NCBI GenBank assembly: GCA_035235625.1
Contig: CP141140.1
Location: 45,193,351 to 45,257,350, forward strand
Length of the DNA stretch: 64,000 nucleotides
DNA from: Saururus chinensis
Taxonomy: Eukaryota > Streptophyta > Magnoliopsida > Piperales > Saururaceae
Direction: 5' to 3'
Under the pieces are notes generated by a model. That model saw nothing but the letters and a program-made list of their open reading frames with translations. It searched no databases and was not told the DNA's origin. A program made the translations under genes and the position numbers. Position 1 is the first letter of the stretch. The number at the start of each line of letters is the position of its first letter. This document shows positions 13,825-51,697 of this stretch, in pieces.

Positions 13825-16800
13825 ATGTGTGTGGGGGGAGAGTGGGATGCAAGTCAACACAAGTATGATAGCTCCAATGCTAAGTCATATCTCATATTTG
13901 TTAGAAGCTCATTGTCATATGAATCATTGGTGACCATAGTAAATGAAGTAATAGGATGTTGTAGCAAGGAATACTCTTTGAAAATGAGTTTTAAATATCT
14001 TTTGGTGATCCCCCTGGACCTACCTCCAATGAAAATACATGATACTAGGACTTTCCATTGTTTTATGCATTATGCTAAGAACAGGGACGATGGTCTTTCG
14101 TTGATAATAACCAAAGTACAAAATGTACCTGTGTTCCATGAATGTGACCCAAATTTTGATGTATCCGATCGGATGATTAAGTAGTCGATTATGTTGAATG
14201 CTGCCGAAGTCCCTAGTAGTCATGCTGATGAAGTTAACCTAAAGGTGGAAGTGAAGGAAGTAGGAGTGATGGACGCAAAAGAAAGCAATGAGCAATTGTC
14301 AAGTGTTGTGGTGGATGGGGACATTTTGTACAAGAGCACAATGGATTTGAGTGATGACACATAAGTAGATGACTTATTGCATGAGGCCAAGGAGTTTGAT
14401 GCAATGAAAGCTCCTCCTATTTACTTATATTTGCAATCCAATTCGAATAAAGAACTAGTAGAAGTCCCCATTGCAAGGGTTGAAGTTGATGATGTGAACA
14501 TATCAAAAATTGTAGAGATTGTGGCCAACTCAAATGAGAGTAATGATGCTGGAGGAGCTAATGATGAAGAAAGTGTGCCCAACACATTGAATAACATTGA
14601 TGAAGACGATGTCGTCTACGATGGATGGCAAGAACAACATGAGGAAGACATTACATGGGATAAAGTTGAATTGCATAATTATGATGAGGATGTCTACATT
14701 GTAGGACGAGAGGATGACACTTGGTATGGAAATGATACAAATGTGACTGTCGTAAGTATGGAATGTGGAAAAGGACCGCCTCCGAACTTAACTAAAGTGA
14801 TGAACATTCAAATGACTGAAAGAAAGTGGTAAGAAAAACTAAAATCACCATTATAAGCTGTGTGTTTGCTAATTTATCAATCTATAGTAACTTTGTTGTG
14901 GTGATAAATGCAAGGACGATGAAGTTCCAACGAGAGAAAATGCCACTATGAAACTTATAAATGACAGAGATGATTGTGGGCGGAGGAAAGCATCTTCATC
15001 AAGTAGCAATTTTGGGAAAACTTCGGCACTAAAACATATTCTAAGGTCATATCACATCTTACGATGTCAATTAATTGATTAGACCTAACTTATAACTATT
15101 TGTCTCAATCTAATACCGATATAAATATAACTCTTGAGCAGAATAGATGTGGGGGTGTGTGTGAATGAAGAGCACAACATGGTTGTGGAGGTTGATTTGT
15201 ATGACTATGGCAAGGATATGAAGGTAGTTCTACTTGGCCAATAATTTAGGGATAAGGAATCTCTGAAGCTACATGTACACAAGTATGCTATGCATAACAA
15301 CTTTGAGTTTAAGGCAAAATATTCAAATAAATTTCGATTCACAGTTGTGTGCAATGTGTCTAGATGTCCATGGAGGTTACATGCTGAGATAACCAATGGG
15401 TATAGTATCTTCAAAATGAAGGCTATGAATAATGTTCATACATGTGGGAAACCAATCTTTAGAGGAGATCACAAACAAGCAAAAGTGGGTATTATTGCTG
15501 ACTCAGTCGTGGAACGACTTAGGCAACATGTTGCTTATACTCCAAAGGATATTTAAGTTTATGTCGATTTGGAAAATGGAGTGAAGATGAATTATTCGAA
15601 GGCATATAGGTCTAAGGTTTTGGCATTTAACAAGTTAAGAGGATCCTATCAGTCATCATATGCTGAGTTGGCTACCTATTTACATGAGTTGGAGAAGGCA
15701 AATTCGGGCACCTCAACTGCTCTCCAGTACGACTCAACAGATATGACCTTCGAGAGATGCTTTGTTTCCTTTGGAGCAGCCATTGAGAACTTCAAGACGT
15801 ACATGCGAAGAGTTATATGTATAAATGTCACATTCTTGAAAGGAAGGTATAAAGGGACTTTGTTTTTTATATCTACTTTGGATAGTGAGAACCATATATA
15901 CCCAATTGCTTGTGCTATCGGAGAAGGAGAGAATAATGATGCATGGGGCTGAGTACTTGCACATTTGGAAACCCGCCTTGGTTATTTGGAGGGCCTAGTG
16001 ATACTTTTTGATCTGCATAGATCAATCATATCATGAGTAGCTCAAATGTTTCCATATGCCGCACATGGTTATTGTGCATTTAACATATCTCAAAACATGT
16101 TTTCACATTTCAAAGATAGAGGTTTGAACAGTAACTTCTTCAGGGCGGAAAAAGCTTTTAGGCCTGAAATATATATGGAAGAAATGACTATCATTGAGGA
16201 GAAAAACACCAAGGCCTACAAATGGTTAATTGAAATTGATAAGGCATGGTGGGTTAGTGCTTACTTTCCATCGCCCAGGTATAAAATTGTCACATCCAAC
16301 CCATGCAAAGCCTTCAATGGAATGATTAGGGAGCAGTAACATTTCCCCATTGTCATGATCATTGAGGCCATCCATTTGAAGGTTCAAGAGATGTGGTACA
16401 AGCATGGATAGGAGGCACAACATTGGAAGAGATACTTGACTAAATATGCCAAAGGAAAGATTCAAAAGTGCAATGAAGCAGCTAGAGGGATGTTGTGTTA
16501 TCCCATAGGTGGCCATGAGGTCTTAACTAGGTCCGAAAGAGGGGATGATCAAGTTTACCTTATTGCAAAGACCTGTACATGTGGAAAATTTCAGCAAAAT
16601 GAGTTGCCTTGTGAACATAAATTGGCAGCTTGTGGCCACCGAAGACTAAATTATGTTGACTATTGCTCCCCATTCCACACAATGTAAACTTATAGAAAAC
16701 TCTATAGCAAGGGAGTATATCTAGTCTTCAAACATAAAAGATGAGAGACTCCTAAAGATGTGAAGAGCCTTAAGTTGAGGCCTCCCAAGGAGAAGGCACG

Positions 16801-17198
16801 ATCGGGATGGATAAAGAAGAAGTAGATTCTTTGTCGAGGTGAAGAAACAAGGAGAGTATAATGTCGTAAGTGCAAACAATATGGTCACTATCGCAATACT
16901 TCTACTGCAGTAATTGGAGAGAACCCGGTCGGGGGCCCTACTCCTCATCAATCCACAGCTCCACCCCCTCCTCCTAGCCGGCTCCCATCACCAACTCATG
17001 CTAACCAACAGTTGTCAACATCTACACAAGTCCCACATCTAGTCGACAAGGTGGACGTTAAAGAAATTAGGTGGAAGCGTAAGACATGTCCAATCGAGTC
17101 AAAGATCAGCCCTCTAACTCCAAAGGGGAAGAGAAAGAAGAAAATAAGACAAGTGGCTGAGCTCAATGCATGTTTACTTGAAGACAAATTGTGCAGCT
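13825..17198 (+). pseudogene. mudrA-type MULE transposase, decayed
   Basis: Transposase of the surrounding MULE. Visible in order: an N-terminal PB1-like region (13825-14184, CVGGEWD and SYESLVTIVNEVIG); an acidic linker (14377-14832); the MuDR domain (about 15205-15500, with NVSRCPWRLHAE); the MULE DDE catalytic domain (about 15720-16340, with TFLKGRYKGTLFF and CAIGEGENNDAWG); a SWIM zinc finger (Cys codons 16574 and 16580, Cys-x-His at 16610-16618, with PCEHK); and a basic Pro-rich tail to 17198. Several in-frame stops interrupt it (for example after 14184, 15241, 15553 and 15949). The first catalytic Asp of the usual IDGTFLKG motif reads Asn (codon 15824-15826). An intron is likely between about 14835 and 15145. 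No longer able to act as a transposase. Confidence 0.85.
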
Positions 17199-18782
17199 GA
17201 ACATTCTTAGTAGAAAAAGTCTTACCATTATAATATACTAGACCTTTATTTTGGATTAGAGCATAATCTTTTGGCAAATCAACCATAAATTCCAGGTGCA
17301 TATACTTCAATTCTCAACATCTTTTTGTTGTCTAAGTTGTTATCATTTGCTAATTTCGTGAATTAGTGTTTTGTTCTTGAACACGTAATTTAATGCATAG
17401 AGAGGAAGAGTCTAATAGTGAAATGTTGTGTAATTATGCAATCAAGCAGAACACACTTTTGATATGAATAAACTTAACAACCATATGCAAATGGATGATT
17501 TAAGCACAGTTGACGAAATCATTTAGCATATGCAAGGATGTGGATTTCTATGTGAAGCTAGGTATAAAATTATTTTTGAGCTCTTGTAATGGACTTGATG
17601 TGGTGGTGTATGTGTGTTTGAAGTTGCTCATATCTGTGGTGCTTTTTAGTGATATGTCTTGAAGCCGTTAGTGATGAGTTTATATTGTCATGTAGTCTTC
17701 TCTGTATAATGTAGCTATAAGAGGCTTTCAACTTTTTGACATTATCATTTCTATTTGGATTTAAGTATTCCATGCTTCGCCACTAGATTTCAATGTTTCT
17801 ATGTATGTATTACGTACATAGCCTATGTTCGCATCAAATAATTTGGTAATGGAGGCAATGTCAGCACAAAACCACAATATGTAATTCGTTGGGCGCCTGG
17901 GAAGTAGGATTCTTGTCAAATTTGTCAATTACATTTGTGTTTTGTCCCATATCATGAAATTCATTAAACCGATATTTCATTTGGAAGGAATTCTCTACAT
18001 ATGCAAGATGTCCAATTACCATTTTTAATTATTTTATGATTGTTGTCTAAACAAACGGTTCAACAAGTAAATACTTTCTTTCCAGTAAACAAATCTAGTA
18101 ACCAAAAATATTTAATTCTTTCATAAAGCAATACTTCAAGTAGAGGTTTTAAATAACAATCCCATTATTTTTCCCCAAGCAAAGCGCTTTAATCTTTACA
18201 AGCTGTAAAGAATAAGCTAGTCAAGGCATGCTTGAATTGATTTCCTTCCCAAAGGGATTTCATGGGCCAATCAACTATTGCCTGAATTGATTTCCTTTCC
18301 AAAGGGATTTCATGGGCCAGTCAACTGTTATCTGAATGCATTGATTTTTATCAATGACAAATCTTTAATTGCTCAACGTACTTCATTCCTACACATGCTA
18401 AATTTCATCCAAATCTAACCAATGAGGAACAATATCTCAATCCTATTGTATCATCAAATACCCCTAGCCATTACCATCTGCAATTTTTGTCCTTATCAAA
18501 CCAACTTCATTCAAAACCTACAACTACATTCGAATGTTGATATCTCATCATTCAACATCAGCAAAAAAACTTACAAAAACCATTAAATTAATATAATCAA
18601 GTACCAACACAAATATATTCAAAATTCAGTCACCATTAAACAAAATGATATGCCCCTTTAAATTATTCCTATAAACCAACAGTCAAACACACCTCGAATC
18701 ACATAGTTAATGACCAACACCATAAAGTTAAGCCAAATCTACTGACAAGATCTCACTGTCATATTGAATTTTGCAGAATTTG
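17199..18782. other. Spacer between the convergent MULE genes
   Basis: About 1.6 kb of AT-rich sequence between the 3' ends of the transposase and Ulp1 genes. No domain is recognisable on either strand. The one clear structure is the 50-bp tandem duplication at 18234-18333. Convergent genes would have their polyadenylation signals here; AATAAA-like words are too common in AT-rich DNA to assign. Confidence 0.5.
18234..18333 (+). repeat. 50-bp tandem duplication
   Basis: Two head-to-tail copies of a 50-bp unit (18234-18283 and 18284-18333) starting GAATTGATTTCCTT and containing GGGATTTCATGGGCCA. They differ at about four or five positions. No gene overlaps it. Confidence 0.85.
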
Positions 18783-19289
18783 CTATTCAACCCTATGCCT
18801 TATGATGCGCATGTCCTCTCCGATAAAGCTAAATCGGTACCCATGCAACAAGTACCACATATAAATGCATACATAGACACCGCAATCATTGTTATTGATT
18901 TGTTGTGGGTGTATGGTTATCTCTCTCACTAGGAGACGCAAGGTAGCAGTTGCTTCATATCCCAATTTCAACAAAACTATTGGAAAAACATGTCTGAGTA
19001 TCGCCAATTTCTTGTAGTACTGCTCTACCTCAATGCCAGAGTAATATGAGTCCATTATGTATAGGACATCCTTCCTCAACTCAAGAATAATGAGAGTTCA
19101 ATGGTTACCGTTTACATGAAGAGGTAAGTGGTGGACCTCATAATCCCAAAAGTCTTTTTCATTTACCTTCAACAACTTCAACATGTTTGTCGGAACCTCT
19201 AGCCATGCTTCTACAACGGCAGCCCTGGAGACATTTTCTTCCTTTTCCTTCATTAATGTGTATAGGCTGAGGAGTGGAGATACATCCAT
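18783..19289 (-). pseudogene. Ulp1/C48 catalytic domain
   Basis: The last exon of the ULP gene. In one frame it reads DFWDYEVHHLPLHVNGNH, a TGA, then TLIILELRKDVLYIMDSYYSG, and on to HPQQINNNDCGVYVC and a terminal stop at 18783. This gives the complete His-Asp-Gln-Cys set of Ulp1-like proteases in the expected order and spacing. The only visible defect in this exon is TGA in place of the Trp codon after the His, a single G-to-A transition. The protein ends about 30 residues after the Cys, normal for plant ULP-like MULE genes. Confidence 0.82.
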
Positions 19290-19767
19290 CCTTATAAGCT
19301 CCTATTGAATTAGAAACAGACGTCGGTCAAGTAGTTGGCAGTTGTCAGTTAAATATAAATTTAAAAACAAATTACTCCATACCATAAAATAGACAAGATG
19401 GAAGACTTATTAAGTGGGTTACCAAGTGCCTTCTTCCGCAATGCTAGCACATATGCATCAATATGCTAGATCAGAGTAAAAGAAAACTAAATGAGTATTG
19501 TATTTAATATCTATAACAATAAGAATTAACTATTATTATGTACAACACAACCAACTACTAATACAACTAAAATTCACACATACATTATCCCAAAGCTACC
19601 TATGCTGCTGCATAATGGATCGTATAAAGTCAGATGTCAGCTGGATTCCACCAATTGCTGGTCGGCTGATCAATTATGAATGACATGATTGTCAACACAT
19701 ATTTATGTAAATGAAATTGATCAATATAAAATGAAATGTGTATCAAACCTAATACTATAATATGAAC

Positions 19768-20302
19768 TCACTCTGATTTCCAACCCTTCCTGAAGCTCTT
19801 TCGAAGGGTTTTATCTTCTTCCACTGTTAGGGCATGGGGTTTAGGACATGCCAATTCCAGCAAGGCTATTTTTGAGAGTGCAACGAGTCCACATATCTTT
19901 CTTCTATGGACTTCTTGGTCGGCTAGAGTTTGTCCCGTAGGTGGCTTGGCAGTAATTGAATCTCCTCCATCTTCAATTTGATCCATTATATGGTTCACCA
20001 TTTCAATGTCAGCCTACCCATCTTCTTCTCCCTTGCAGTGAATATTGTCGTTGTTTAAGGGCTCGCCAGCAGTATCTTCCTCTTGAACATAACTTGGGCT
20101 CCTCACCAGTCTCCTCTTGCCTCTCCTTGGCGCCGTATAAGGGGTCCTTACATATTTGCTAGCAGTCCTATTCCTACCTTGGACATCGGAGGGCACAACC
20201 TCTTTAACTTTTGGGGCATCACTCCTAATGTCGACCCCTGCCTCCCCAATGTCCACATGTGTTGCACCATCAAATGGGTGAACTTCGTATGCGACGATGC
20301 CC
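19768..20302 (-). pseudogene. Linker exon of the ULP gene
   Basis: Follows an acceptor-like CTTCATAG, begins with GIVAYEVHPFDGATH and continues through SDAPKVKEVVPSDVQGR, KYVRTPYTAPRRGKRR, one in-frame stop near 20010, and PPTGQTLADQEVHRRK to a donor-like GTGAGT near 19767. The basic and Pro-rich RTPYTAPRRGK stretch is typical of the linker between DUF1985 and Ulp1 in this family. Its 5' 147 bases are duplicated at 21832-21976 beyond the inserted LTR. Confidence 0.72.
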
Positions 20303-20324
20303 TATGAAGACATGCACATATGAG
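20156..20324 (+). repeat. Left copy of the ~168-bp direct duplication around the LTR-tRNA cassette
   Basis: From TGCTAGCAGTCC to CATATGAG, ending exactly where the LTR starts. It matches 21832-21999 with about 15 differences in 168 bp (9%), mostly transitions. It contains the 5' end of the ULP linker exon and its splice acceptor. Confidence 0.85.
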
Positions 20325-21760
20325 TGTTGCACTCAAATAATGTTTAATTAAATGTTTTCACATTTCAAATTGCAATCCTATTTTGTATTAATTCATTGCT
20401 TATTTGGGCTATTTATGTTTTGAATAGGTTAGTTGGACCTTAATTGAGTTTACATGTCTAAATAGGCTTCAACAAGATCCAACTGGAAGTGGAAGTGAAA
20501 TCCAACTACCCAAAGCTATTTAAAAGTTAAGAATGAGATCTTAATGGTCTAAACATGCATGGAATGGTTGAACACAACCTTGTGGACCTGTTGGATATGA
20601 GATTTGCATTAAAAGAACTAAATTAAGAAAGAAGCTGATTCCGACAGATTGACACAACCTTAGTATTTTGACCATATCTCTCTCTATATATAACTCGGAT
20701 TGATACTATTCTAGTGGCATTGGAAAGAAGACTTCCGTGGCTGCATTTGTTATTTCAAGAAGAAATTCCATATTCCGAAGCTTTGTAAGTCGAATTTGGC
20801 AAAGGGACAGCTAGTTAACTAACCCGAGACTAGCACATGGAGAATCTTTTTATTAATTATGATTGATACACATAAGGAAAGATAATGAGGCTGGTTAGAT
20901 AACTAAAGGAAGATTCAAAGATACTTATTTGCTAAATAAATCATTAATTTATTTAATTAATTTAGAATCTAATCATTGCCAAAGAAGCAACCAATCAAGC
21001 GATCAATCAAAATGCAATCTAGAGATATGATTTTACTTTCCCCTTTGAAGCAACCCCTTCTATTCCTATAAATAGAGGGGTGGACGTGATAGAGACATCA
21101 TTTCCTCCTCTTTAGAGATCTCTTCCCTTATTTTCTTCTATTTCTTTGTATTTTTTTATTTTTAGTTTTATTGTAATGGCTTTCTAAGCTCTCAAGTTCA
21201 AGCTTGAGTTGATTTATAATAATCTAATAGAGTTCTATTTATGTTTCATCAATTGTTTCAAGTAAGTATTATTTATTTAAAGTAACGTTTATTTAATATT
21301 GTTATTCTTCTTATTTCTTTGTGATTTGCATACATAAGATGCTTGAAAGCTCTTCTTTTTGATCTTTTGTAATTTGGATACATAGAAATATTTAAGAGAC
21401 AATTATTTTTATCCTTCATCTATCCAAAATATTTTCTATCTTTAATTTTAATTTTAATGTTCATATTTTCCAGTTAGATAGAATCTTCATTTGATTCTAA
21501 TTGAGATAACATGATACATGAAGAACATCATTAGATGTTACAATGATCCTTAATGTCTTAGTGTTTTCTCATCTTGATTTCTTAACTCTTTATTGCCTCA
21601 ATATTCTTCTACTCTTTCTTAGTTTTTCTTTCTTCTACTTTTTCGTAACAATTTTCTTTGTTTCACAAGGCTTTCCCTGTGGATCGACCTTATCTATTAC
21701 AATTGGCAAGTAAAACAAATTTGAATTTGATTTCTTCATAGTCTTGTTTCAGATGTAACA
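20325..21760 (+). mobile_element. Single Athila-type LTR (captured cDNA)
   Basis: Starts TGTTGCACTCAAATAATG, matching the Athila LTR end TGATGCACTGAAATAATG seen at 40480, and ends GATGTAACA at 21760. It carries the family's TATA box (21067-21074) and the GTGGATCGACCTT phrase near 21680. It is 1,436 bp, about 240 bp longer than the LTRs at 40480 and 42559, so it is a related subfamily. There is no second LTR and no coding region. Unlike an ordinary solo LTR it continues into a PBS and antisense tRNA, and its flanks are a 168-bp duplication. Confidence 0.85.
21067..21074 (+). promoter_or_regulatory. TATA box of the captured Athila LTR
   Basis: TATAAATA within CCTATAAATAGAGGGGTGG, a phrase shared by all four Athila LTRs of this family in the window (also at 41018 on + and near 43205 and 51480 on -). 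Confidence 0.6.
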
Positions 21761-21766
21761 ACAAAT

Positions 21767-21831
21767 TGGCGCCGTTGCGGAGGATCGAACCCGGGTCACC
21801 CGCGTGACAGGCGGGAATACTCACCACTATA
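21767..21831 (-). other. Antisense tRNA-Asp(GUC) fragment fused to the LTR
   Basis: On the - strand this reads as tRNA-Asp from its D arm to its 3' CCA: TATAGTGGTGAGTATTCCCG, anticodon loop CCTGTCACG (GTC), T arm GGGTTCGATCC, and the CCA end. Only about 10 nt of the 5' end are missing. It lies six bases after the LTR end, exactly at the PBS, which in this Athila family (see 50810) pairs with tRNA-Asp for about 18 nt only. Here the match continues through the whole tRNA body. CCA is not encoded in plant tRNA genes, so the source is a mature tRNA or the PBS, not a tRNA gene. About three differences from the plant tRNA-Asp I recall. Confidence 0.88.
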
Positions 21832-21999
21832 TGCTAGCAATCCTCTTCCTACCCTGGACATCGGAGGGCACAACCTCTTTGACTTTTGGGGCATCACTCC
21901 CAATGTCAATCCCTGCCTCCCCAACGTCTACATCAGTTGCACTATCAAATGGGTGAACTTCGTATGCAATGATGTCCTATGAAGACATGCACATATGAG
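21832..21999 (+). repeat. Right copy of the ~168-bp duplication
   Basis: Starts TGCTAGCAATCC directly after the tRNA sequence and ends CATATGAG, then continues into the unique host intron. It shares a two-to-three-base overlap (TATA/ATAT) with the tRNA end, suggestive of microhomology joining. It contains a second, partial copy of the ULP linker exon with its acceptor site. Confidence 0.85.
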
Positions 22000-22335
22000 T
22001 AGTTGTGTAAATCAAAATATAATAATATTAGGACAATGTGGGACAATTAAGATAGTAAAGTATCAAGCATGTAATTTTTAATTGTATAACATTGGGGCAA
22101 GAAATACATGTCCTTCATATGACAAAGACTTGCATACCCTAACTTGCCGACAACTGGATTCATTGAATATTAGTATGATTTTTGTGGAGTTACAAGAATA
22201 ATAAAACTTAACAGTAGTATGGAGTCATAATCATTAATAGAATGTAGCTAACCTTAAATGGGTTTGTTGACTTCCCACTCATGGACAACAAAGCTAAAAC
22301 ATCTTGAGATAATTTATCTACCTTGGCTTCTAAAA
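22000..22335 (-). other. ULP intron and short ULP exon
   Basis: Mostly intron sequence of the ULP gene. The 22253-22335 part reads on - as IFLEAKVDKLSQDVLALLSM and SGKSTNPFK before a GT donor at 22252. It appears to continue the coding sequence that stops at 28550 on the far side of the retroelement block (DHLEV), so the block split an exon. Confidence 0.6.
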
Positions 22336-24204
22336 AGATATTTTTTTTCCTATTTTTCTTTTAGGATGTTTTAAAGTTTTTTTTCCTATTTTTCTTTTAG
22401 GATGTTTTAAAGTTTTTTTTTTCATTATTTGTTTTATTTTCTTTACTTTTAAGTGGGCTTTATCGTTTATTATCTTTTAAAAGTATATGTCTATTTTTAA
22501 AGAGATCAATTTCATGAAGAAAGTTCAAGTAATTAATTAAGTGATGAAAATGATTAAGTGAGTAATTTCTATTTTATTTTCTTTATCTTGGATAATTGTG
22601 CTTATATTTTGAAATCACATTTAACACACTTGAAACTTGTAGGAATATAATTTTATGATTTATTACTTGTAATCCTAGTGGGATATCTTTAACTAAGCAT
22701 ATTTTTGAAAACTTGGCAATTGAGTAATTTTTAATATTTTATGATAGATCTTTTAGTTTAGCTTTTATTTGAAAAAGAATGGGATAAGTGTGTAAAGAAA
22801 AAAAAGAATGAAAAAAAAGTTAAAAAATTATGAAAAAAAGAAAAAAATAGATTGAATGAAAAAAAAATTGATGAAAAAAATATATATAAAGGTTTGTTTC
22901 TCTTTTTACTGAGTAACCGGACCTTGTGCCTAGGCAAGTATAAGGGATCACGTCAAAAGGTGAAAAGTTGAGATAAATTCTTTTATGACTTACTTGGTTC
23001 TGTAGCCTTTATAGTTCGAGTTATTAAGCCTGAGGGGTGTTTGAACACCTAGTGCATTGAGCCAACTGGATTAGAGACACTGGCCAACTGTAAATGCCAC
23101 CCAATCCTTCCCTAGGGCTGAGAATAATCCATTTTCAAATACATGTAACCCTGGGTGGAGGAATCATCCTAACTTTTCTTGGTAGACACAAAACCAAGGG
23201 GTTATGGGTAACCAACCCCCTTGGCACCCATTCCAAGTCCCACCAGCCCATATCCACCAACCTCAAGTGCAACCCCCATATGTCCAACCCAATAGGAGTC
23301 CAAGTTTGGAAGAAAAGGTTTTGAGTGCCCTGCAAGGCATTCAATCTCAATCCCAACTCCTCCACTCTCACACACAATCTATAGCAAAGTTAGAAGCCTA
23401 AATTGGACAACTAGCTAATGTTATTAACAAGAGAGAAATTGGGACATTGCCAAGTCAACCCCTACCAAACCCTAAAGGTCAATTTCAGGTAGAAGGAGCT
23501 CCTCCATCTAATAAACAAGTTAATTCCATAATGACCGTTAGGAGTGGGAGGATTGTTGACAAGAGTGTTGGGGGGACACCAGTGACAGATGATAGGAGTG
23601 AGGAGTTAGAGAGGGCAGCCCCTAATGAACCTCAAGTAGAAGTTAGTGCACCACATGAGAAGGAGTTTGTATCTCATTCCCCTTCCTCATAGCCATAGTC
23701 TAAGACCACTTCCGATGGATCTTATATCCCTAGGGCACCCTTTCCTCAGTGTCTTGACATGGCCCCACCATTTAGAAAGAGCACAGCTAGGACTGATGAG
23801 ATTCTTGAGATTTTTAAACAAGTCAAAATTAATCTCCCCCTCTTAGATGCCATTAAGTAAGTCCCTGCTTATGCTAAGTTCCTTAAAGACCTATGCACTC
23901 ATAAGCGTAAATCCAAGACCCATGTGTCTAAGAAGGTTTTTCTCACCAAGCAAGTTACTCTCTTTTGAAGTTTGACACCCCACCTAAGTATAAGGACCCT
24001 GGAGTACCTACTATTTCATGTGTCATAGGTGATCACTCCATCCATAGAGCCCTACTTGACCTTGGTGCGAGTGTCAATCTACTCCCTTACTCGGTGTATG
24101 AGAAACTAGGGTTAGGTGAATTGCAGCCTACATCAGTTACCTTGCAGCTAGCCAACCATTCTGTGCGTAAGCCTCGAGGAGTCCACGTATACTTTAAACA
24201 TCGT
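22336..24204 (+). mobile_element. Athila fragment, + orientation (non-coding leader, gag end, protease)
   Basis: Two adjacent 34-35-bp tandem copies (about 22349-22416) are followed by a poly-A/T-rich leader (22490-23085) that matches, inverted, the interior of the element at 25814-27114. Then comes gag C-terminal coding (about 23100-23700, with NPGWRNHPNFSW) and an aspartic protease region to about 24190 (RALLDLGASVNLLPYSVYEK). These are Athila-type sequences close to those of the element at 42559-51697. It is an incomplete, broken fragment with several breaks and no LTR of its own at the left. Confidence 0.7.
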
Positions 24205-24378
24205 AAAAGCATGTGAAGACTATTTTAAATTATTATAAACATCATCCACGTATCTCGATAAGCGTACTTTAACTACAAAACATAAAAACATCATCCTTTA
24301 GACATGTACAATATAATTAAAATTCCAACTTTGTTCAAATACATATCTAAACTACTAATAACTACAAAATTAATTAAC
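24205..24378 (-). repeat. Partial Athila LTR fragment
   Basis: 174 bp closely matching 25520-25695, the distal third of the neighbouring LTR, and placed immediately before that LTR's start. It is a partial extra LTR copy in the same orientation. Confidence 0.75.
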
Positions 24379-24379
24379 T

Positions 24380-25813
24380 TGATCGTTTATAATTAAACCC
24401 TTTGCAAGTGTACAAGGTAATTGTACTAGGATAAGTATTTAAGGGTTGTCGAACCTCAGGGACGGATGAATTATTACTAAATCTAAAGAGGAATTTGCTG
24501 ATTAAAAACTAGAAAGAACTTAAACTTAAATGAAGCAAAATAAGGGAATCAACTAGTTTAAAAACAAGAGATTAATATGATGAAAATTACTTAGGAAATC
24601 GAATCCACTATAGAACCATAACAATTCCTTAACTTTTAATCTAAATCTAGTGTGAATATGAACAAGTATTCTCAGCTACAAGCTAGAATTACTTCAGAAA
24701 GAATCATTAATTAAATTCCATGGCATGAACTATCTTCGACAATAGCACGAATCATCTACACTAAACTAACTATAGGCATGACCCGTATAATCTTAGTATA
24801 ACTCATCCAAGTCATTAATTATATGAACATTAAAACTATTGTATGACCATCTCATCTAAATCACAGAAACTAGAATTGATGCAAATATCAAAACCATATC
24901 AATCTATCATCTACAAGACAATAAATTAACATAGACTTGAATAAACATTAAAAGCTCTTCTATTAAAAAGGAAATCCATATCATAGAATTGTCATCATTC
25001 ACAACTGAGATCTAAATTAAAAAGGAAAAAAATTGAAACTTATCTATAGCTTCATCAACTCCTAAGTAAAAGAAAAGTCTAGCCTTTCATTGTAGAAGAA
25101 AGCACTTGAATCTCCATTGAAAGCTTTGAGTTCTCTTCTATCTTCTTCTTCCTTTTTCTCTTCATAAAATCTACTGGAATCCTCTGGTTTTAAGTCAAAT
25201 ATGTCTTTTTACAGGCATAAGATCCGTAGGAAGAAGTCCAATATGAAAAGGATTGAAATTTGGCTAAAACTAGGAAACTGCACGTTATGCTGTTCGAACG
25301 CTCTGCATGCCCGTTCGAACGCTTGAACTAAGTTTTACTTCAAAATTACGTTATCCCGTTTTAACGCCCTGGATGCCCATTCGAACGGATACAGTGTTTC
25401 AGCAATCTAGATAGTTTTCCTGGACAGTCCATATTCTGTTCACTAAGCTTTTCTTTTTGTCCATATTAATTTCCAACTTGTTTATAACTCCAAAAAGTTG
25501 TCCAAATCACTTTAAAGCATGTCAAGACTATTTTGAATTATTATAAGCATCATCCACATATCTCGATAAGCGCACTTTACCTACAAAACATAAAAACATC
25601 ATCCTTTAGACATGTACAATATAATTAAAATCCCAACTTTGTTCAAATACATATCTAAACTACTAATAACTACAAAATTAATTAATAATTAAACTAAAAT
25701 ATAAATTTCTATCTTAATCTAAATAAATTATAACTAATTCTTAATTAACCTAATATATACTAGCAAATAAGGTAAAAAAACATATAAAATAGAGATATAT
25801 TTCATACTTATCA
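24380..25813 (-). repeat. 3' LTR of the non-autonomous Athila derivative
   Basis: Left LTR in window order, downstream LTR in element order. Its sense strand contains two units of a module with CGTTCGAACGGGCATGCAG (about 25270-25395 on the opposite strand) that also appears in the unrelated 3.4-kb LTR family. Confidence 0.82.
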
Positions 25814-40400: not shown

Positions 40401-40479
40401 TGTATTTTTCTCCATGGTTGAGACATTCACCATTTGTTAATGATGCATGTGGATGAGATGATTTTACGCCTAGGTTACT

Positions 40480-41671
40480 GATGCACTGAAATTATGTTTA
40501 ATAAAATATTTTCAAATTTCTATTTGCAATCCTATTTTGTGTTAATTCATTACTAATTTGGGCTATTTATGTTTTGAATAAGTTAGTTGGACCTTAATTG
40601 AGTTTACATGTCTAAACAGGCTTCAACAAGATACAACTGGAAGAGGAAGTTGAGCCCAACTACCCAAAGCTATTTAAAAGTTAAGAATGGGCTCATAATG
40701 GTCTAACATGCATGGAATGGTCGAACACAACCTTGTGGACCCATTTGATTTGAGATTTGTATGAATAGAACTAAATTATGAAAGAAGTTGATTCGGATAG
40801 ATTGACATAACCTTAGTATTTTGATCATATCTTTTTATGTATAATTCGGATTGATACGATTCTGGTGGCAATGGAAAGAAGACTTCCGTGGTTACAAGTG
40901 TTATTTCAGGAAGAAATTCCAAATTCCGAAGATATAGGGGTCGAATCAGGCAATCAATCAGGATGAAATCTGGAGATATGATTTGATTTTACCCTTTGAA
41001 GCAACCCTTTCTTTTCCTATAAATAGAGGGGTGGACGTGATAGATGGGGCATTCTCTCCTCTTTAGAGCTCTCTTCTCCTATTTCCTTCTCTTATTTTGC
41101 ATCTTTGTTTTTAGTTTTATTGTAATGGCTTTCTAAATCTCTCAAGCTAAGGCTAGGAATGAAGCTTGTACTTGATGTTTAATGGATACTTTGATTCAAG
41201 TAAGTTCTTTATCATTTTAAATTGATGTTTCATATTTAAGGAGTTTATAATCTATACAATTATTTGATTCAGCGTTGACGAAAGGCACGTTGAATGCTTA
41301 TAATTCCCTGTGATTATATACTTAATGCTTTCACGTAGTAAACAATCAATTACTATTGTTTTATTTCAAAGTTCTTTAAAAGATAAATTTTCCGATTAAG
41401 ATAAATTTTCATTTGATCTTGATTGAGTTATCATTTGAATGAAGTAAACATTAGAGATTTATTGCAAGTGGATTTTTGATGCCTTAGCACTTTCTCTTTG
41501 AATTGTCTCTTATCATCTATTTCACTTTTCTTCTCTATTCGATTCTCTTCGTAATAGTTTTCTGTGTCACACAAGGCTTTCCCTGTGGATCGACCTTGTT
41601 TACTATAGTTGACAAGTAAAAAAAAAGAAATCTGAACTAGACTCCTTCATAGTCTTAGTTTGGACGTAACA
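40480..41671 (+). mobile_element. Athila solo LTR
   Basis: 1,192 bp from TGATGCACTGAAATTATG to GGACGTAACA, flanked by a perfect GTTAC duplication (40475-40479 and 41672-41676). Same family as the LTRs of the element at 42559-51697 but in the opposite orientation. TATA box at 41018-41025. It sits in LTR T1, as shown by the continuous match of the flanks to the uninterrupted copy T2 near 54345. Confidence 0.9.
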
Positions 41672-42558: not shown

Positions 42559-43751
42559 TGTTACGTCCAAACTAAGGCTATGAAGGAGTCTAGTTCAGAT
42601 TTCTTTTTTTTACTTGTCAACTATAGTAAACAAGGGTCGATCCACAGGGAAAGCCTTGTGTGACACAGAAAACTATTACGAAGAGAATAGAATAGAGAAG
42701 AAAAGTAAAATAGATAATAAGAGACAATTCAAAGAGAAAGTGCTAAGGCATCAAAATCCACTTGTAATAAATCTCTAATGTATACTTTATTCAAATGATA
42801 ACTCAATTAAGATCAAATAAAAATTTGTCTCAATCAGAAAATTTATCTTTTAAAGAACTTTGAAATAGAACAATAGTAATTGATTGTTTACTACGTGAAA
42901 GTATTAAGTGTATAATCACAGGGAATTATAAGCATTTAGCGTGCCTTTCGTCAACGTTGAATCAAATAATTATATAGATTATAAACTCCTTAAATATGAA
43001 ACATCAATTGAAAATGATAAAGAACTTACTTGAATCAAAGTATCTATTAAACATCAAGTACAAGTTTCATTCCTAGCCTTAGCTTGAGAGCTTTAGAAAA
43101 CCATTACAATAAAAATAAAAATAAAAATGCAAAATGAGAAAAGGAAATAGGAGAAGAGAGCTCCAAAGAGGAGAGAATGCCCTATCTATCACGTCCACCC
43201 CTCTATTTATAGGAAAAGAAAGGGTTGCTTCAAAGGGGAAAGTTAAATCATATCTCCAGATTTCATCCTGATTGATTGCCTGATTGGACCCATATATCTT
43301 CGGAATTTGGAATTTCTTCCTGAAATAACACTTGTAGCCACAGAAGTCTTCTTTCCATTTCCACCAAAATCGTATCAATCCGAATTATATATAAAACGAT
43401 ATGATCGAAATACTAAGGCTGTGTCAATCTGTCAGAATCAACTTCTTTCATAATTTAGTTCTATTCATACAAATCTCAAATCAAATGGGTCCACAAGGTT
43501 GTGTTCGACCATTCTATGCATGTTTAGACCATTAGGAGCCCATTCTTGACTTTTAAATAGCTTTGGGTAGTTGGGCTTAACTTCCTCTTCCAGTTATATC
43601 TTGTTGAAGCCTGTTTAGACATGTAAACTCAATTAAGGTCCAACTAACTTGTTCAAAACATAAATAGCCCAAATCAGCAATGAATTAACACAAAATAGGA
43701 TTGCAAATAGAAATTTGAAAACATTTTATTAAACATTATTTCAGTGCATCA
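42559..43751 (-). repeat. 3' LTR of the Athila element
   Basis: On + it starts TGTTACGTCCAAACTAAGG and ends CAGTGCATCA. The - strand TATA box (CCTATAAATAGAG) lies at about 43200-43212. Confidence 0.88.
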
Positions 43752-45333
43752 AATACCCCCAAACCTACTTTTTGCTAGTCCTCGAGCAAAACAAAAATTA
43801 AAACAATAGAAAACAAAACTAACTACTCCACTTCCGCAGGAAATCTCGATTGCATTTAGCATATGCAATAAGCCTTTAAACCCCTAGCTTACACTAGTAG
43901 ACGAGTTGTGTCTCGTGAGGGTTTGCAATGAATATACCCACAAAATTCAAAACTAGAATGTTAAAAGAAAATAAAAATTAAAACCACGTCAAATTTACAA
44001 ATCAACTCCTCCTAAACATGTAACTTCATTTAGTAAAATCAATCATGCATAATATAACTTGTCTTTTGAAACAATAATTCATTCTAACAACTTCATATTG
44101 GTAGCATGTACTCATACATACATAATAGTTTTAGAAAAACAGACATTGCCAAGTAATTATACAATCCCATTCTTATGAATCGAACAACTCAATGTGTCTC
44201 ATGTCCACTCAACAATTTCAATTTTAATACTAAATAGGCATTGGCATCCATTCATCTTCAAGAGATCATAATAGAGAATCATGCAAAACCTTCCTTGAAA
44301 AGTAAAACACCCTAGATCACCTGCCAACTCATTCAAGATATAATTGCATAGTGTCCTACTAGAATTTTATGCTCATCTCACATGACATGTGTACGGCTTA
44401 GCCTTTTTAGCTTTCTATAAGATCCATGTAACAAGTGTTAGGCCAGTGACTCCCAATCCAGTTGGCTCAGGGCACTAGGTGTTAAAGCACCCCTCAGGCT
44501 TAATAACTTGAACCAAATAGGCTTCAAGGCTATGCATGTCATAAATTAGTCAACTCTACCTTTTGACTCGAACACCCTATGTTTAGTGAGGCATGCTGAG
44601 TCCCGGTCTACTCAATAGAGTGACTTTAATTTTTTTTCATTCTTTTTTTTCACATTTTTTTGATTTTTTTTTCTTGAGCACATTATACAATCAACTTGAA
44701 TTGTGTTGACAACAAGTCCTCGATTGTTCTACAAACCAAGAATAGTGAAGCTCAAAACTCTATCATGATAACATGAATACTACTAGATCATGCCAAAGTT
44801 TTACTCTCATAAGAAAATAATTACTTAGATTCAATGATATCCACCAAGATGTAAGACCATAATCAAGGGCTTGAATTCTCACTTAGGCAAATGTCTTGCT
44901 TTATTTTATTTTTCAAAATAGGAGCACAAAAAACCAATATGAAGTAATCAGAACTCAAAATCATTAAATCTGTCAAGTCATATTCTAAGTAGTCTGATGT
45001 CATTAATCTAATTAATTTTTTTCAATTTTTCATTTTTTTAAGTAAAACAAAAAAAAATATAAAGAAAAATATCTTTCTACACCCCCAAACCTAAACTAAA
45101 CATTGACCTCAATGTAATTTTTTTTTTTGGTGAAAAATCATGAAAAGAAAATCAAACCTCATAATTTGGATTTTCAAGAGGTGTAGACTCAACTTCAGGG
45201 ACAAAATGGTCTAAAAATGGTTTCAAAGGTTGGCCATTAACTTTGAAAACATCACCATTTTTTGGGTTCTCAATTTCAACAGTTCTATAAGGAAAAATAA
45301 TTTTTACAATGAAAGGACCTGTCCAACGTGATC
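43752..45333 (-). other. 3' non-coding region of the Athila element
   Basis: About 1.5 kb between integrase and the LTR, where some Athila elements carry an env-like gene. Only AT-rich and poly-T/A tracts are seen here, with no env-like frame. The segment around 44430-44640 is the part shared with the fragments at 22900-23085 and 26500-26690. 45150-45330 still encodes the end of the integrase region on -. Confidence 0.65.
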
Positions 45334-48300
45334 TTAATTTTCCTGGAAAGAGATGTACAATAAAACCTTTTGAAATGGCTCAAAAGTTTTTCGTAAAATA
45401 TTTTTATCATGAAAAGCCTTCATTCTCTCTTTGTAAAGTTTTGAACTCTCATAAGCATCACGTCGAATTTCTTCTAACTCATTGATTTGCAATTGTCTAT
45501 TTAAGCCAGCCTTATCAAAGTTAAAATTCAAAGCTTTGATTGCCCAATATGCCCTATGTTCCAACTCCACAGGCAAGTGACAAGCTTTTCCAAAAATCAA
45601 ACCGTAAGGAGACATGCCAATTGGGGTTTTAAAAGCGGTACGGTAAGCCCAAAGAGCATCGGTTAGCCGTAAAGACCAATCTTTACCATTTGGATTTACC
45701 ATTTTTTGCAAAATATATTTAATTTCCCTATTAGAAATCTCAACTTGTCCACTTGTTTGTGGGTGATAGGGGGTAGCTACTTTATGGGTAATCCCATACT
45801 TCCTCATCAAAGCCTCAAAAGGCTTATTGCAAAAATATGACCCCCCGTCACTTATAATGGCTCGAGGTGTTCCAAACCTTGAAAATATATTTTCTTTTAA
45901 AAAGCGCACAACGACTTTGTGGTCATTGGTTTTGCTTGGAACAGCCTCAATCCACTTAGAAACATAATCGACAGCAACTAAAATATAAACATAGCCAAAA
46001 GAAGGAGGAAAAGGTCCCATGAAATCAATGCCCCAACAATCAAAAATCTCAATAACCAATATGGGGTTAAGGGGCATCATATTTCGATGAGAAATGGCTC
46101 CTAACTTTTGACACCTTTCACAAGTTTTGCAAAATTCATGAACATCTTTGAAAAACATCGGCCAGTAAAAACCACATTACAAAATTTTAGCGGTGGTCTT
46201 TTTAGAGAAGTGACCACCGCAAGCTTCAGAATGACAAAAAGAAATGATACTTACTTGTTCAGAATCAGGCACACATCTCTTTATTATTTGATCTGGACAG
46301 TACTTAAAGAGATAGGGGTCGTCCCAAAAGATATGCTTTACCTTAGTGAAGAATCTCTTTTTATCTTAAGGAGACCAATGGTGGGGAACTTTACCTGTCA
46401 CCAAGTAGTTGGTAATGTCGGCATACCATGAAGGATGTGAGACGACAAAAAGTTGTTCATCGGGGAATGTGTGTTGGATTGGAATGTTTTCTGAAGAATC
46501 AGAAAATTCCAATCTGAAAAGATGATCCGCCACCACATTCTCTACTCCCTGCTTGTCTTTGATTGTAAGATCAAACTCTTGGAGTAGGAGTATCCATCGG
46601 AGCAATCTGGGCTTTGTATCTTGTTTGCTCAAAAGGTACTTCAAAGCTGCATGGTCAGTAAAAATGATAATTTGAGAGCCAATCAAGTAGGATCTAAATT
46701 TGTCAAGTGCAAATACTACAACAATAAGTTCTTTTTCATTGGTGGAGTAGTTCATTTGGGCACTATTTAAAGTTTTACTTGCATAATGAATTACGCAAGG
46801 TTTCTTATCTTTCCTTTGCCCTAAAACAGCCCCAACGGCATAATCACTTGCATCACACATAATTTCAAAAGGAAGGTTCCAATCTGGGGGTTGCATGATG
46901 GGTGCGGACACTAACATGTTCTTAAGCTTTGTGAAAGCTTCTTCATATGCATTTGACCACTCAAAAGAATGCTCTTTAGATAGAAGATTACACAACGGTC
47001 TAGATATCACACTAAAATTCTTAATAAATCTTCTATAAAAACCGGCATGCCCTAGAAAGGATCTAACATCTTTTGTGGACTTTGGACTAGGCAAATTAGC
47101 AATCAATTCAATATTTGCCTTGTCCACTTGAATTCCACACGTAAAACAATGTGACCAAGTACTATTCCAGTAGTAACCATAAAATGACACTTTTCCCAAT
47201 TTAAAACTAGATTTTTCTCTTCACATCTCACCAAAACTTTTTCTAAGTTATCAAGACAATCATCAAAAGGATCACCAAAAATAGAAAAATCATCCATAAA
47301 AACTTCCAAAAACCGCTCCACCATGTCACTAAAGATGCTCATCATGCACCTTTGGAATGTGGTAGGAGCATTACATAACCCAAACGGCATCCTTCGATAT
47401 GCAAAGGTACCAAATGGACATGTAAAGGTTGTTTTTTCTTGATCTTCAAGTGCAATCTCAATTTGGTTGTATCCTGAATAACCATCTAAAAAACAATAAA
47501 ATTGATGACCGGCTACCCTCTCTAGGATTTGGTCCATGAATGGCAAGGGGAAGTGGTCTTTCCTAGTGACGGAATTTAATTTCCTATAATCTATGCACAT
47601 CCGCCAACCAGTGGTGACTCTAGTGGGAATTAACTCATCATTACCATTCTTTACCACTGTCACTCCAGACTTTTTGGGGACAACTTGGGTGGGACTCACC
47701 CATGGACTGTCAGAAATGGGGTAAATGATACCCACATCCAATAATTTTAGAACCTCTGCTCTCACTACCTCCGTTGCATTTGTCTCACAGGTTTTGCATT
47801 TTCTTCCATGAAGATCCTATGTGTACAAATCAGGGAACTAATCCCCTTGATATCAGCAATGGTCCACCCAATGGCATTCTTGTGATTTCTAAGGACTTCG
47901 AGCAACTTATGCTCTTGCTCCCTATCCAACATTGAAGAGACAACCACAGGAAATGTCTCTCCCTCACCAAGATAAGCATATTTAAGTTCAGTAGGGAGGG
48001 GTTTCAAGTCTAGCTTGGGTGGTTGGACACTTGAGGGGAGAGGAGCGCTATTAGGAGGTAACTCCTCAAAGCGGGCCTTCCACCTATCAGTATCTAATAA
48101 TGGAGTTGACTCCAACAAGGAATTTACATCATTAATCATAACATCATCATCAAAGTTAAAATAAGAAAGACATGCTTCAAGAGGGTCAGAAAATGAAGAA
48201 ATAGTAGCCATGTCATCAACAAGACTTTCTAAAAGATTCACTTCATGCACATCCACGTCATCATCACCTGGTTGCCTGCAAATATTAAAAATGTTCAGTT

Positions 48301-50458
48301 CCAAAGTCATATTTCCAAAAGAAAGCTTCATAACACTATTTCTACAATTAATAAGAGCATAAGAAGTAGCAAGAAATGGGCGGCCTAATATGACAGGAAT
48401 TTGAGTACAAGCATTCAAAACTGGTTGTGTGTTCAAAACAATAAAATCAACAGGAAAGTAAAACTTTTCTACTTGTACTAACACATCCTCAACAATTCTT
48501 CTTGGTCTTTTAACTGAGCGCTCTGCAAGTTGAAGTGTAATGCTTATGGGCTTCAATTCACCAAGTCCCAATTGTTCATAAACAGAATAAGGTAAGAGAT
48601 TAACACTTGCCCCAAGATCAAGTAAAGCTTTTTCAACTCTATAATTCCCAATTATACAAGATATGGTTGGACAACCAGGATCTTTATATTTGGGTGGGGT
48701 GTTGTGTTGCAAAATTCCACTTACTTGTTCTGTCAAAAATGCCTTCTTTTGTACATTTAGCTTACGCTTAATTGTACAAAGATCTTTCAAAAATTTAGCA
48801 TAAGATGGAATTTGTTTAATGGCATCTAAGAGAGGAATGTTAATCTTCACTTGTTTAAAAATTTCAAGAATGTCACCATTTGGCACCAATTTAGAGGAAG
48901 ATTGTAACCTTTGAGGAAAAGGAGGAGGAATTGGAGCAACACAATCAAAGTTGTCAAGTTCATCACCATGTTTAGAATTCAAAGACTCCTTAGGTTCAAC
49001 AACCTTCATTGGAATGTCTTTGTTAATAACTTTTCCATTTCTCAAAGTGGTGATGGACTTAGCATGCTCTTCTTGTGAACTTGAAGAATTTAAATTTTTA
49101 ATTACAATTTGACCTTTAGGATTTGGTTGAGGTTGAGAAGGAAACTTCCCTTTTTCTTGAGTGCTCAAAGCTGTGGTCAATTGAGTGATAGAAGTCTTCA
49201 AGTCATTGATGGCTTACATTGTTTGGTTGTTGATTGTTGCTTGACTTTGCATGAATGTTTGCAATGTGTCTTCAAAAGTCTTCTTATGTGGTGGAACATA
49301 ATTTGAGGAAGAAGGGGGTACTTGCACATTAGACTCATTTCTCCAACTAAAGTTGTGATGATTTCTCCAATTAGGAATATAAGGAGAAGAAAATGGCTTT
49401 TTGTAAGTATTCATAGCATTTGCTTGAGTATGCAACACCTCTTGAAAAGCAGGGATTGTTGGACAATCCTGTGTTTGGTGTCCATCACTCTCACATATAC
49501 TACAAATATCTTGTGCTTTTTGAGAAGCTTTAGACATGTTTTCCCTATTAATTTCCATAGCCTCAACTTTTCTAGTTAAACTTGTAATTTTTGCTTTTAC
49601 ATCATCCTCTTCTTTAAGAAGGTACAAGCCCCCCTTAGTTGCCCCATTAGATTTGGTTTTATTACTACTTTCAAATTCATTAGAATCTTCCCATGATTGA
49701 GCATTTTCAGCTAACACATCAAAATTGTCCCATGCTTCCTCAGGTTCTTTACTCAAAAACTCTCCATTACACATCATTTCAACAAATTGCCTCATTTGAG
49801 AAGATAAGCCATTATAAAAGAAACTAATTGTACGCCATGTTTCATATCCATGATGTGGGCACAACAACAAAAGTTCTTTAAATCTCTCCCAACATTGAAA
49901 GAAAGTCTCATTTTCTTTTTGTGAAAAATTCATGATATTCTTTCGAAGTGTATTAGTTTTATGGGTAGGGAAAAACTTTTTCAAAAATTCTCTTTACATT
50001 TCTTGCCATGATCCAATGGATCTTGGCTTCAAAGAATTCAACCAATTTTTTGCCTTTTCCTTTAAAGAAAAAGGAAAGAGTTTTAATCTAATAGCATCAT
50101 TTGAAATATTTTGGTTTGGCAAAGTTGCACAAACCTCTTCAAACTCTTTTAAATGCAAATATGAGCTTTCTGAATCTAAGCCATGAAATTTGGGTAGTAA
50201 TTGAATTACACCCAGCTTGAGTTCAAAACCACCCACATTAGTTGGAAAAATCATGCAAGAAGGAGAACTTGATCTAGTTGGTTGCAAATAATCACGCAAG
50301 GTTTTAACTTGAATATTTTGTGCATTATTATCTCCATTATTACTTCTTAGTTCCTCATTAGTTCTTAGATCCTCTATTGTATCAAAATAAAGATAATTTT
50401 CAAAAGATTTGTTCACTTTTTTCAATCGTCCAAAATTATAACGCACCCATATGAACAT
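45334..50458 (-). pseudogene. gag-pol region of the Athila element (fossil)
   Basis: Parts on - in order: gag (50458-49214; TRSSSPSCMIFP, LLPKFHGLDSESSYLHLKEF, a CSICESDGHQTQDC zinc knuckle), protease (about 48660-48380; ALLDLGASVNLLPYSVYEQL), RT (about 47765-47110; FLDGYSGYNQI, FMDDFSIFGDPFDDC, NLVLNWEKCHFMV), RNase H (about 46870-46510; MCDASDYAVGAVLGQ), and integrase with its zinc-binding and DDE parts (46158-45334; [30 protein letters not shown]). RT and gag signatures are of the Athila clade. About five breaks overall. The best-preserved retroelement in the window. Confidence 0.85.
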
Positions 50459-50828
50459 GCAACAACAATTTTTTTTTTAATAACAAACGAAAGTAAAAGT
50501 GCAAAAATTAAATGACAAAATATTAAAAAGTTAGAGGGTTAGAAGTTAATAGACAAAAATTAAAATTGCAAAAATAAGGCCAAAGGCACTATCAAGGACA
50601 CGTTTGATCCCGAAAAATTTTCGGTAGTAACGTGGGTAGTGCCTCCAGTCTAAAAAAAAAGAAAAATTACAGAATTTAAGTACTAAAAGTAAATGACATA
50701 TAGTAAATGACTGAATTTAAAGAGAGTGTGTGCAAGAATAAAAGTTAGAGAATTAGTAAAGTTAGAGTGAGTTTTTCGTAAAGGATTCTTGTCACACGTT
50801 GCAATCCTCGGCAACGGCGCCAATTTGT
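50459..50828 (-). other. Athila 5' leader and tRNA-Asp primer-binding site
   Basis: Non-coding leader between LTR and gag. The PBS on - reads TGGCGCCGTTGCCGAGGAT, starting six bases (ACAAAT) after the LTR end GTAACA. It matches the complement of the tRNA-Asp 3' end with one mismatch over about 19 nt and then diverges. This is the normal arrangement against which the tRNA fusion at 21767-21831 stands out. Confidence 0.75.
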
Positions 50829-51697
50829 TGTTACGTCCAAACTAAGGCTATGAAGGAGTCTAGTTCAGATTTCTTTTTTTTTACTTGTCAACTATAGTAA
50901 ACAAGGTCGATCCACAGGGAAAGCCTTGTGTGACACAGAAAACTATTACGAAGAGAATAAAATAGAGAAGAAAAGTAAAATAGATAATAAGAGACAATTC
51001 AAAGAGAAAGTGCTAAGGCATCAAAAATTCACTTGTAATAAATCTCTAATGTATACTTTATTCAAATGATAACTCAATTAAGATCAAATGAAAATTTGTC
51101 TCAATCGGAAAATTTATCTTTTAAAGAACTTTGAAATAGAACAATAGTAATTGATTGTTTACTACGTGAAAGTATTAAGTGTATAATCACAGGGAATTAT
51201 AAGCATTTAGCGTGCCTTTCGTCAACGTTGAATCAAATAATTATATAGATTATAAACTCCTTAAATATGAAACATCAATTTAAAATGATAAAGAACTTAC
51301 TTGAATCAAAGTATCTATTAAACATCAAGTACAAGTTTCATTCCTAGCCTTAGCTTGAGAGCTTTAGAAAACCATTACATTAAAAATAAAAACAAAAATG
51401 CAAAATGAGAGAAGGAAATAGGAGAAGAGAGCTCCAAAGAGGAGAGAATGCCCCATCTATCACGTCCACCCCTCTATTTATAGGAAAAGAAAGGGTTGCT
51501 TCAAAGGAGAAAGTTAAATCATATCTCTAGATTTTATCCTGATTGATTGCCTGATTAGACCTATATATCTTCGGAATTTGGAATTTCTTCCTGAAATAAT
51601 ACTTGTAGCCACGTAAGTCTTCTTTCCATTGCCACCAGAATCGTATCAATCCGAATTATACATAAAAAGATATGATCGAAATACTAAGACTGTGTCA
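50829..51697 (-). repeat. 5' LTR of the Athila element (partial copy)
   Basis: Begins TGTTACGTCCAAACTAAGG on + like its partner and matches about 867 bp of it at about 97%. - strand TATA box near 51474-51485. Its outer part is not present; LTR T1 sequence resumes at 51698. Confidence 0.85.

Follow-up and report, generated by a model that had tools for sequence, protein, structure and literature searches.

A single Athila-type LTR continued in register by a tRNA-Asp(GUC) complement and flanked by a 168-bp duplication in Saururus chinensis

Results

A complete LTR between two copies of a duplicated target

The window, by which we mean the whole 64,000-nucleotide stretch of Saururus chinensis contig CP141140.1 that was analyzed, holds a single complete LTR that is followed by a linker, a primer-binding site (PBS) and the body of a tRNA-Asp(GUC) in complement, with a copy of the same target sequence on either side of the whole arrangement (Table 1). 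When aligned with the related LTRs of the window, this LTR begins (TG, 20325) where both complete relatives begin and ends (CA, 21760) where all three relatives end, the third of these lacking its 5′ part, and its U3 is complete. Identity was about 77% to each of the two complete related LTRs (1173 aligned columns) and 72% to the truncated one (849 columns). The LTR, six-base spacer and PBS that had been read from the letters in an earlier note on this DNA were thus confirmed, both by this alignment and by the linker of a full-length relative. A TG...CA LTR together with a PBS for tRNA-Asp or another non-Met tRNA is the pattern expected of Athila, and tRNA-Asp is among the primer types of non-chromoviruses (PMC6317226, in the part available). 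As to coding content, the Athila branch would be marked by gag, protease, RT, RNase H and integrase in the absence of Tat's extra RNase H; the focus insertion has no coding region, and in a related element one RNase H region was found among the six ORF pieces searched against Pfam.

The two flanks (20153-20325 and 21828-22000) were identical at 157 of 173 positions, that is, 91% with 16 differences, and once the bases that could belong to the tRNA (TATA) and to the LTR (T) were removed, 168 bp with 15 differences remained as the unique duplicated part. Both the flanking duplication of about 168 bp that the earlier note had described and its estimate that the arms differ by about 9%, from which it took the event to be old, therefore stand, with the length rising to 173 bp when the ambiguous junction bases are counted. 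The end of the left copy abuts the LTR exactly, and the start of the right copy falls within TATA. A short overlap at the right junction had also been proposed, with the letters given as TATA/ATAT; the overlap is there, but it is between TATA in the tRNA copy and TATT in the left target copy, and so amounts to 3–4 nt. The 5 nt preceding TG (ATGAG) have no direct repeat either right after the LTR or right after the tRNA. We rejected an ordinary solo LTR as the identity of this insertion, since a linker, PBS and tRNA follow the LTR, the flanks are duplicated over 168 bp and a 5-bp repeat is absent.

On the minus strand, the duplicated stretch displays a splice-acceptor-like CATAG followed by 48 codons that are open in both copies. 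Thirteen of these codons differ between the copies, and since 9 of the 13 change the residue, there appears to have been no strong constraint since the duplication. The stretch is presumed to carry the 5′ part of an exon upstream of an Ulp1-like protease domain, and to judge from strand and position this exon presumably belongs to the gene of the Peptidase_C48 (Ulp1) ORF that lies downstream on the same strand, which would then be the gene hit by the insertion. Within 16412-19301, a SWIM zinc finger ORF (plus) is found near the Ulp1 protease ORF (minus), a pairing that we take to resemble Mutator-like elements that carried off Ulp1 genes.

Table 1. Features of the insertion, its surroundings and the two control elements.
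Feature	Positions	Strand	Basis or remark
Ulp1 protease (Peptidase_C48) ORF	18783..19097	-	PF02902, E 2.6e-06
Left target-duplication copy	20157..20324	.	Match to right copy; extends to 20153-20325 with ambiguous junction bases
Single complete LTR, TGTTG...GTAACA, 1436 bp	20325..21760	+	Alignment with related LTRs of the window
Linker ACAAAT, 6 nt, LTR end to PBS	21761..21766	+	Identical in full-length relative (PBS at 50822)
tRNA-Asp primer-binding site, 18 nt	21767..21784	+	Two mismatches to reference tRNA (positions 13, 15)
tRNA-Asp(GUC) body past PBS: A58, variable arm, anticodon arm, D loop, to about U11	21785..21831	-	46/47 match; final four bases TATA shared with target
Right target-duplication copy	21832..21999	.	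Match spans 21828-22000
Ordinary solo LTR of related subfamily (control)	40479..41671	+	5-bp target duplication GTTAC
Full-length relative with gag, protease, RT, RNase H and integrase pieces (control)	42559..51697	-	PBS at 50822, then ordinary leader

The sequence beyond the PBS is a tRNA-Asp(GUC) complement

Compared with plant tRNA-Asp(GUC), for which the reference was a typed-in sequence rather than a database record, positions 21767-21831 matched the complement at 62 of 65 positions, and past the 18-nt PBS the match was 46 of 47. The next-best 47-nt tRNA match on both strands of the window reached 27/47, and when one strand of each of 50 base-shuffled windows was scanned, the highest score was 28/47. 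A permissive search of 451 bases with the Rfam tRNA model, which is independent of that reference, found the minus strand of 21778-21832 (model positions 10-63 of 71). With 23.4 bits and an E value of 0.015, the match does not reach the gathering score of 29, as would be expected for a tRNA without its 5′ strand. At the gathering score, the Rfam search of the whole window did not list the segment, and ARAGORN reported zero tRNA genes in the window. The anticodon loop CTGTCAC (GUC) is directly readable in the letters, and A58 was placed by the standard numbering, in which the TATA where the match stops corresponds to roughly nucleotides 14 to 11 and lies within the D stem. The earlier description of about 65 nt of tRNA-Asp(GUC) complement through T arm, anticodon and D arm thus agrees with the alignment, with the qualification that the complement ends in the D stem and not at the tRNA 5′ end.

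The tRNA complement runs in exact register from the linker and PBS, and this includes the TGG that derives from CCA. CCA is not encoded by nuclear tRNA genes. What we found, U3-R-U5-PBS and then tRNA complement beyond A58, is the composition of an over-extended plus-strand strong-stop DNA, and the segment most plausibly arose when reverse transcription copied the primer tRNA into DNA beyond the usual stop. The register through the PBS and the continuation past that stop support the earlier proposal that plus-strand synthesis read far into the tRNA. Plus-strand synthesis normally ends before m1A58, after 18 nt of tRNA, whereas, in vitro, copying of unmodified tRNA went all the way to the 5′ end, and extension beyond A58 was seen in cells whose m1A58 methyltransferase was mutated (PMC13191261, in part). 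The segment therefore resembles those over-extended products in joining an LTR to primer tRNA complement beyond A58, and differs from them in being fixed in a genome rather than made in vitro or in methyltransferase-mutant cells (same source, in part).

On the minus strand of 21760-21860, GGGTTCGATCC in the T arm has been retained in the tRNA copy, as has the greater part of the D arm, and by the box consensus of RNA polymerase III, transcription by this enzyme antisense to the LTR is conceivable.

The three mismatches divide between the PBS (2/18) and the tRNA body (1/47), a difference that is not significant (Fisher p 0.18); those in the PBS fall in the T stem and the one in the body in the D loop. 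At PBS position 15, A is present in both the focus insertion and the full-length relative and G in the reference tRNA, and G is also found at this position in an Arachis element (PMC5904367, in part). The G at PBS position 13, which would disrupt pairing in the T stem, probably arose by mutation afterwards. For A15, either the primer was an isodecoder with the matching base, giving a tolerable G-U pair in the T stem, or the PBS derives from the element and the body only from the tRNA. If the primer tRNA has C opposite A15, then the PBS part would not be a straight copy of the primer, and a template switch or PBS mismatch repair would fit better. A patchwork made at the DNA level would account both for A15, which would come from the PBS of the element itself, and for a tRNA body that is nearly perfect, and the uneven mismatches lean the same way, their p value notwithstanding: an ordinary insertion would later have been broken, with repair synthesis off the PBS switching to a chromosomal tRNA-Asp gene via PBS homology and then to an empty allele about 170 bp upstream. 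Such a history requires two template switches and an empty allele, places a switch point inside the PBS, and leaves it to be explained that no tRNA-gene flanks are included in the insert. We regard it as improbable.

Related elements in the window

Allowing at most 4 of 18 mismatches, we found two PBS sites in the window, the second being that of the full-length relative (minus, 50822). This relative departs from the tRNA sequence just past its PBS, within about 20 nt of the PBS start, which speaks, within the window, against the possibility raised earlier that the tRNA body might be normal leader sequence of these elements. At the place of the PBS, no more than TGGCGC is present in a third Athila-like element (minus, 28550-24376). 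The focus subfamily has no full-length copy in the window, a circumstance that leaves some room for its normal leader to have been tRNA-like, but an Arachis element with a tRNA-Asp PBS, its clade unnamed, likewise diverges right after 18 nt (PMC5904367, in part). A tRNA-derived SINE or a tRNA gene resident at the site would not run in register from a linker and CCA complement, nor stop at the duplicated target, into which the segment leads directly; a SINE would be marked by a tRNA head with unrelated body and tail and by a short duplication, and we rejected both candidates. Taken together as one explanation, a normal leader of this LTR subfamily or a SINE or tRNA gene at the site is very improbable.

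In both window elements with a recognized 3′ LTR (2/2), the G-run of what is presumably the polypurine tract is separated from the TG of the LTR by TATT, marking a plus-strand start that we infer for these elements, and this TATT is missing at the left junction of the focus insertion.

Several further observations concern the related elements themselves. In the full-length relative (minus, 51697-42559), the 3′ LTR is complete and the 5′ LTR is missing the initial 325 nt of U3; with the right end placed 3 nt inside the linker, this element displays a perfect 5-bp duplication, ATAAC, a reading that consists of a single 5-bp match at a boundary chosen by us. This suggests that the relative may be another insertion with linker kept at its U5 end, combined with an alternative plus-strand start. 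Antisense to its gag ORF piece, a C/D-box snoRNA match was detected at 49845-49951 (+) (Rfam snoR71, RF00097, 45.2 bits). The Athila-like element at 24206-28550 (minus) has 1.44-kb LTRs that are 96.7% alike; directly adjoining the element is a piece of its LTR, 172 nt in length (24206-24377), and a separate inverted copy of its leader lies at 22486-23088.

Ages of the tRNA segment and the duplication

The 16 differences in 173 positions correspond to about 4.6% change per lineage if the arms were identical at insertion, which under that assumption predicts 3.0 changes in 65 nt, and 3 were observed. For the 47-nt tRNA body alone, at most 1 change has a probability of 0.35, which is unremarkable. 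The ages of the tRNA segment and the duplication are therefore compatible. With plant substitution rates of 1.3e-8 and 7e-9 per site and year, the insertion would be roughly 4–7 million years old.

This agreement between arm and tRNA divergence also bears on whether the 168-bp repeat could be an older tandem duplication at whose boundary an LTR-tRNA piece was inserted, and speaks against it. The insert moreover meets the repeat boundary on both sides to within a few ambiguous bases, and we consider there to be very little chance that the duplication came first.

Searches for similar sequences elsewhere

A search with the RT protein against viral contigs gave 6 pattern stretches and 0 relatives, a 36-nt tRNA pattern gave 0 matches in viral contigs, and a 30-nt PBS-tRNA pattern gave 0 in prokaryote genome contigs. 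The PBS pattern was found in 3 stretches of viral contigs, all with 66–70% G+C, and these were taken as chance matches; judged by eye, without a family search, ORFs in two of them (L002 and L003) resemble phage capsid and portal proteins.

Discussion

Integration by one end as the proposed origin of the insertion

We lean towards the view that this locus is the remnant of an Athila-type cDNA that was joined by integrase at one end only, whose tRNA-tagged U5 end was repaired by other means, and which is now a solo LTR. In the course of events that we propose, removal of the tRNA-Asp primer would have been late, and plus-strand synthesis at the U5 end would have run through A58 and the anticodon and stopped near nucleotide 11, or alternatively would have gone further into the tRNA and then been trimmed. 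The complete cDNA would have retained or regained this copy at its right end, and an end made of U5, linker, PBS and tRNA would have been unusable for integrase, which would have joined the intact U3 end precisely at its TG. With its free 3′ terminus (...TATA), the tRNA copy may then have paired by 3–4 nt with the target about 170 bp upstream and primed repair synthesis, by which the stretch of about 170 bp would have been duplicated. Finally, recombination between the LTRs, the usual route to a solo LTR, would have deleted the interior and the second LTR, a step that leaves no mark of its own.

The U3 terminus is intact, and because U3 is complete, the cDNA must have been later than minus-strand strong-stop DNA; we accordingly rejected the latter, which would be without U3, as the captured molecule. 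The left end, at TG without TATT, looks like an integrase-processed end. What is expected of an integration by one end is a clean integrase-type junction on one side, which is found exactly at TG, and a non-substrate end joined at short homology next to a host duplication or deletion on the other, here the tRNA end with 3–4 nt of homology and 168 bp. Against this account, the microhomology is only 3–4 nt and no second case was found in the window. The A at PBS position 15 is a difficulty for it too, as it is for capture at a break.

The earlier note had preferred a different ending, in which the product was joined into a staggered break by end joining and fill-in. In that account, an over-extended plus-strand strong-stop product, consisting of one LTR and the tRNA copy, would have been captured at a chromosomal break with long overhangs, whose filling in would have produced the duplication. 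It predicts the same sequence as the one-ended account. In a plus-strand strong-stop intermediate, the minus strand continues past U3, so that there is no free duplex U3 end, yet the left junction falls exactly at TG and lacks the TATT that both window elements have. A stagger of 168 nt would also be needed, which is unusual for a break. The content of the insert, U3-R-U5-PBS-tRNA, does speak for this account, as it is that of over-extended plus-strand strong-stop DNA such as product P1 (PMC13191261, in part), and the shared A at PBS position 15 could derive from pairing with a PBS copied from genomic RNA. The presence of only one LTR at the locus speaks for it as well, but a single LTR need not mean that a one-LTR intermediate was captured, because solo-LTR recombination yields the same structure, and solo LTRs of this kind do occur locally, as the one with the GTTAC duplication attests. 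We consider capture at a break the main rival, and the weaker and less well supported of the two accounts; it strikes us as rather unlikely, though it has to be taken seriously.

Comparison with known systems

Each step of the integration by one end that we favor has a retroviral counterpart. In one-ended integrations of HIV, one end is normal and the other is usually joined at short homology; duplications of host sequence are the commonest outcome, usually far exceeding 5 bp and reaching hundreds or thousands of bp, and synthesis on nearby DNA is primed from the 3′ end left free (PMC5041404, in part). The focus insertion is like these HIV-1 and ASLV cases in its integrase-type end, its other end at short homology and the adjoining long host duplication (PMC5041404, in part). 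Those cases arose under an integrase inhibitor or with mutations in integrase or in the viral end (PMC5041404, in part), whereas the insertion studied here is natural, old and of plant Ty3/gypsy type, and its bad end apparently came from the retained tRNA copy. Host alternative end joining, which is based on microhomology and involves polymerase theta and others, also serves the second strand transfer and is present in plants (PMC12786077, in part).

A genomic likeness is found in MuERV-L, where a linker, of 5 nt, likewise precedes the PBS and U5 continues into linker and PBS, both in fossils and in new insertions (PMC5930517, in part). Linker/PBS sequence was kept at the 3′ LTR end in 10 of 26 new 3′ junctions and in about 6.5% of complete genomic proviruses, for which its authors suggested inefficient tRNA removal (PMC5930517, in part). 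In MuERV-L, however, the linker is followed by PBS of various lengths, and the one new insertion reported with both flanks had 5 bp (PMC5930517, in part), whereas the focus insertion goes 47 nt deeper into the tRNA and has a 168-bp duplication. The junctions of 2-LTR circles similarly have tRNA-derived or PBS sequence at the U5 end of the cDNA, but these circles are unintegrated (PMC5618025, in part). Helenus and other TRIMs resemble the locus in having an LTR and tRNA-like sequence together; in these, it is the LTRs that contain the tRNA-like sequence, and target duplications measure 4–5 bp (PMC10886601, in part), whereas here the tRNA is outside the LTR, in PBS register and a single instance. 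An LTR of Helenus/TRIMp3 type was rejected, as the tRNA segment starts after the LTR end and not within the LTR.

For a retained copy of the primer tRNA at an LTR end, the only genomic record that we found in the open-licence literature is that of MuERV-L, limited, in the available part of that source, to linker and PBS. No report of Ty1 cDNA captured with its primer tRNA was found in the same literature. As far as the open-licence literature was searched, a tRNA copy that goes beyond A58, through the anticodon and as far as the D arm is new for a plant genome, as is the combination of steps in a plant element, although the kind of event is known.

Implications for plant retrotransposons

A broader proposal, which we put forward tentatively and hold to be possible though on balance doubtful, is that, in plants, cDNAs with U5 joined to tRNA are regularly made by retrotransposons whose PBS is preceded by a linker, the tRNA being copied to near its 5′ end since some of the packaged tRNA lacks the A58 mark. 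Integration of these by one end would give rise to a class of variants consisting of LTR, linker, PBS and tRNA beside duplicated sequence of hundreds of bp, and a genome-wide reading of these could reveal how the primer tRNA was modified in past particles. If such insertions are recurrent, pipelines that require 5-bp duplications would overlook them. LTR-linked tRNA copies would also be a route by which tRNA-like sequence is spread in genomes without a SINE. If deep tRNA copies do recur, plant genomes would constitute a datable archive of failed primer removal, read-through of m1A58, one-ended integration and microhomology repair at transposon ends.
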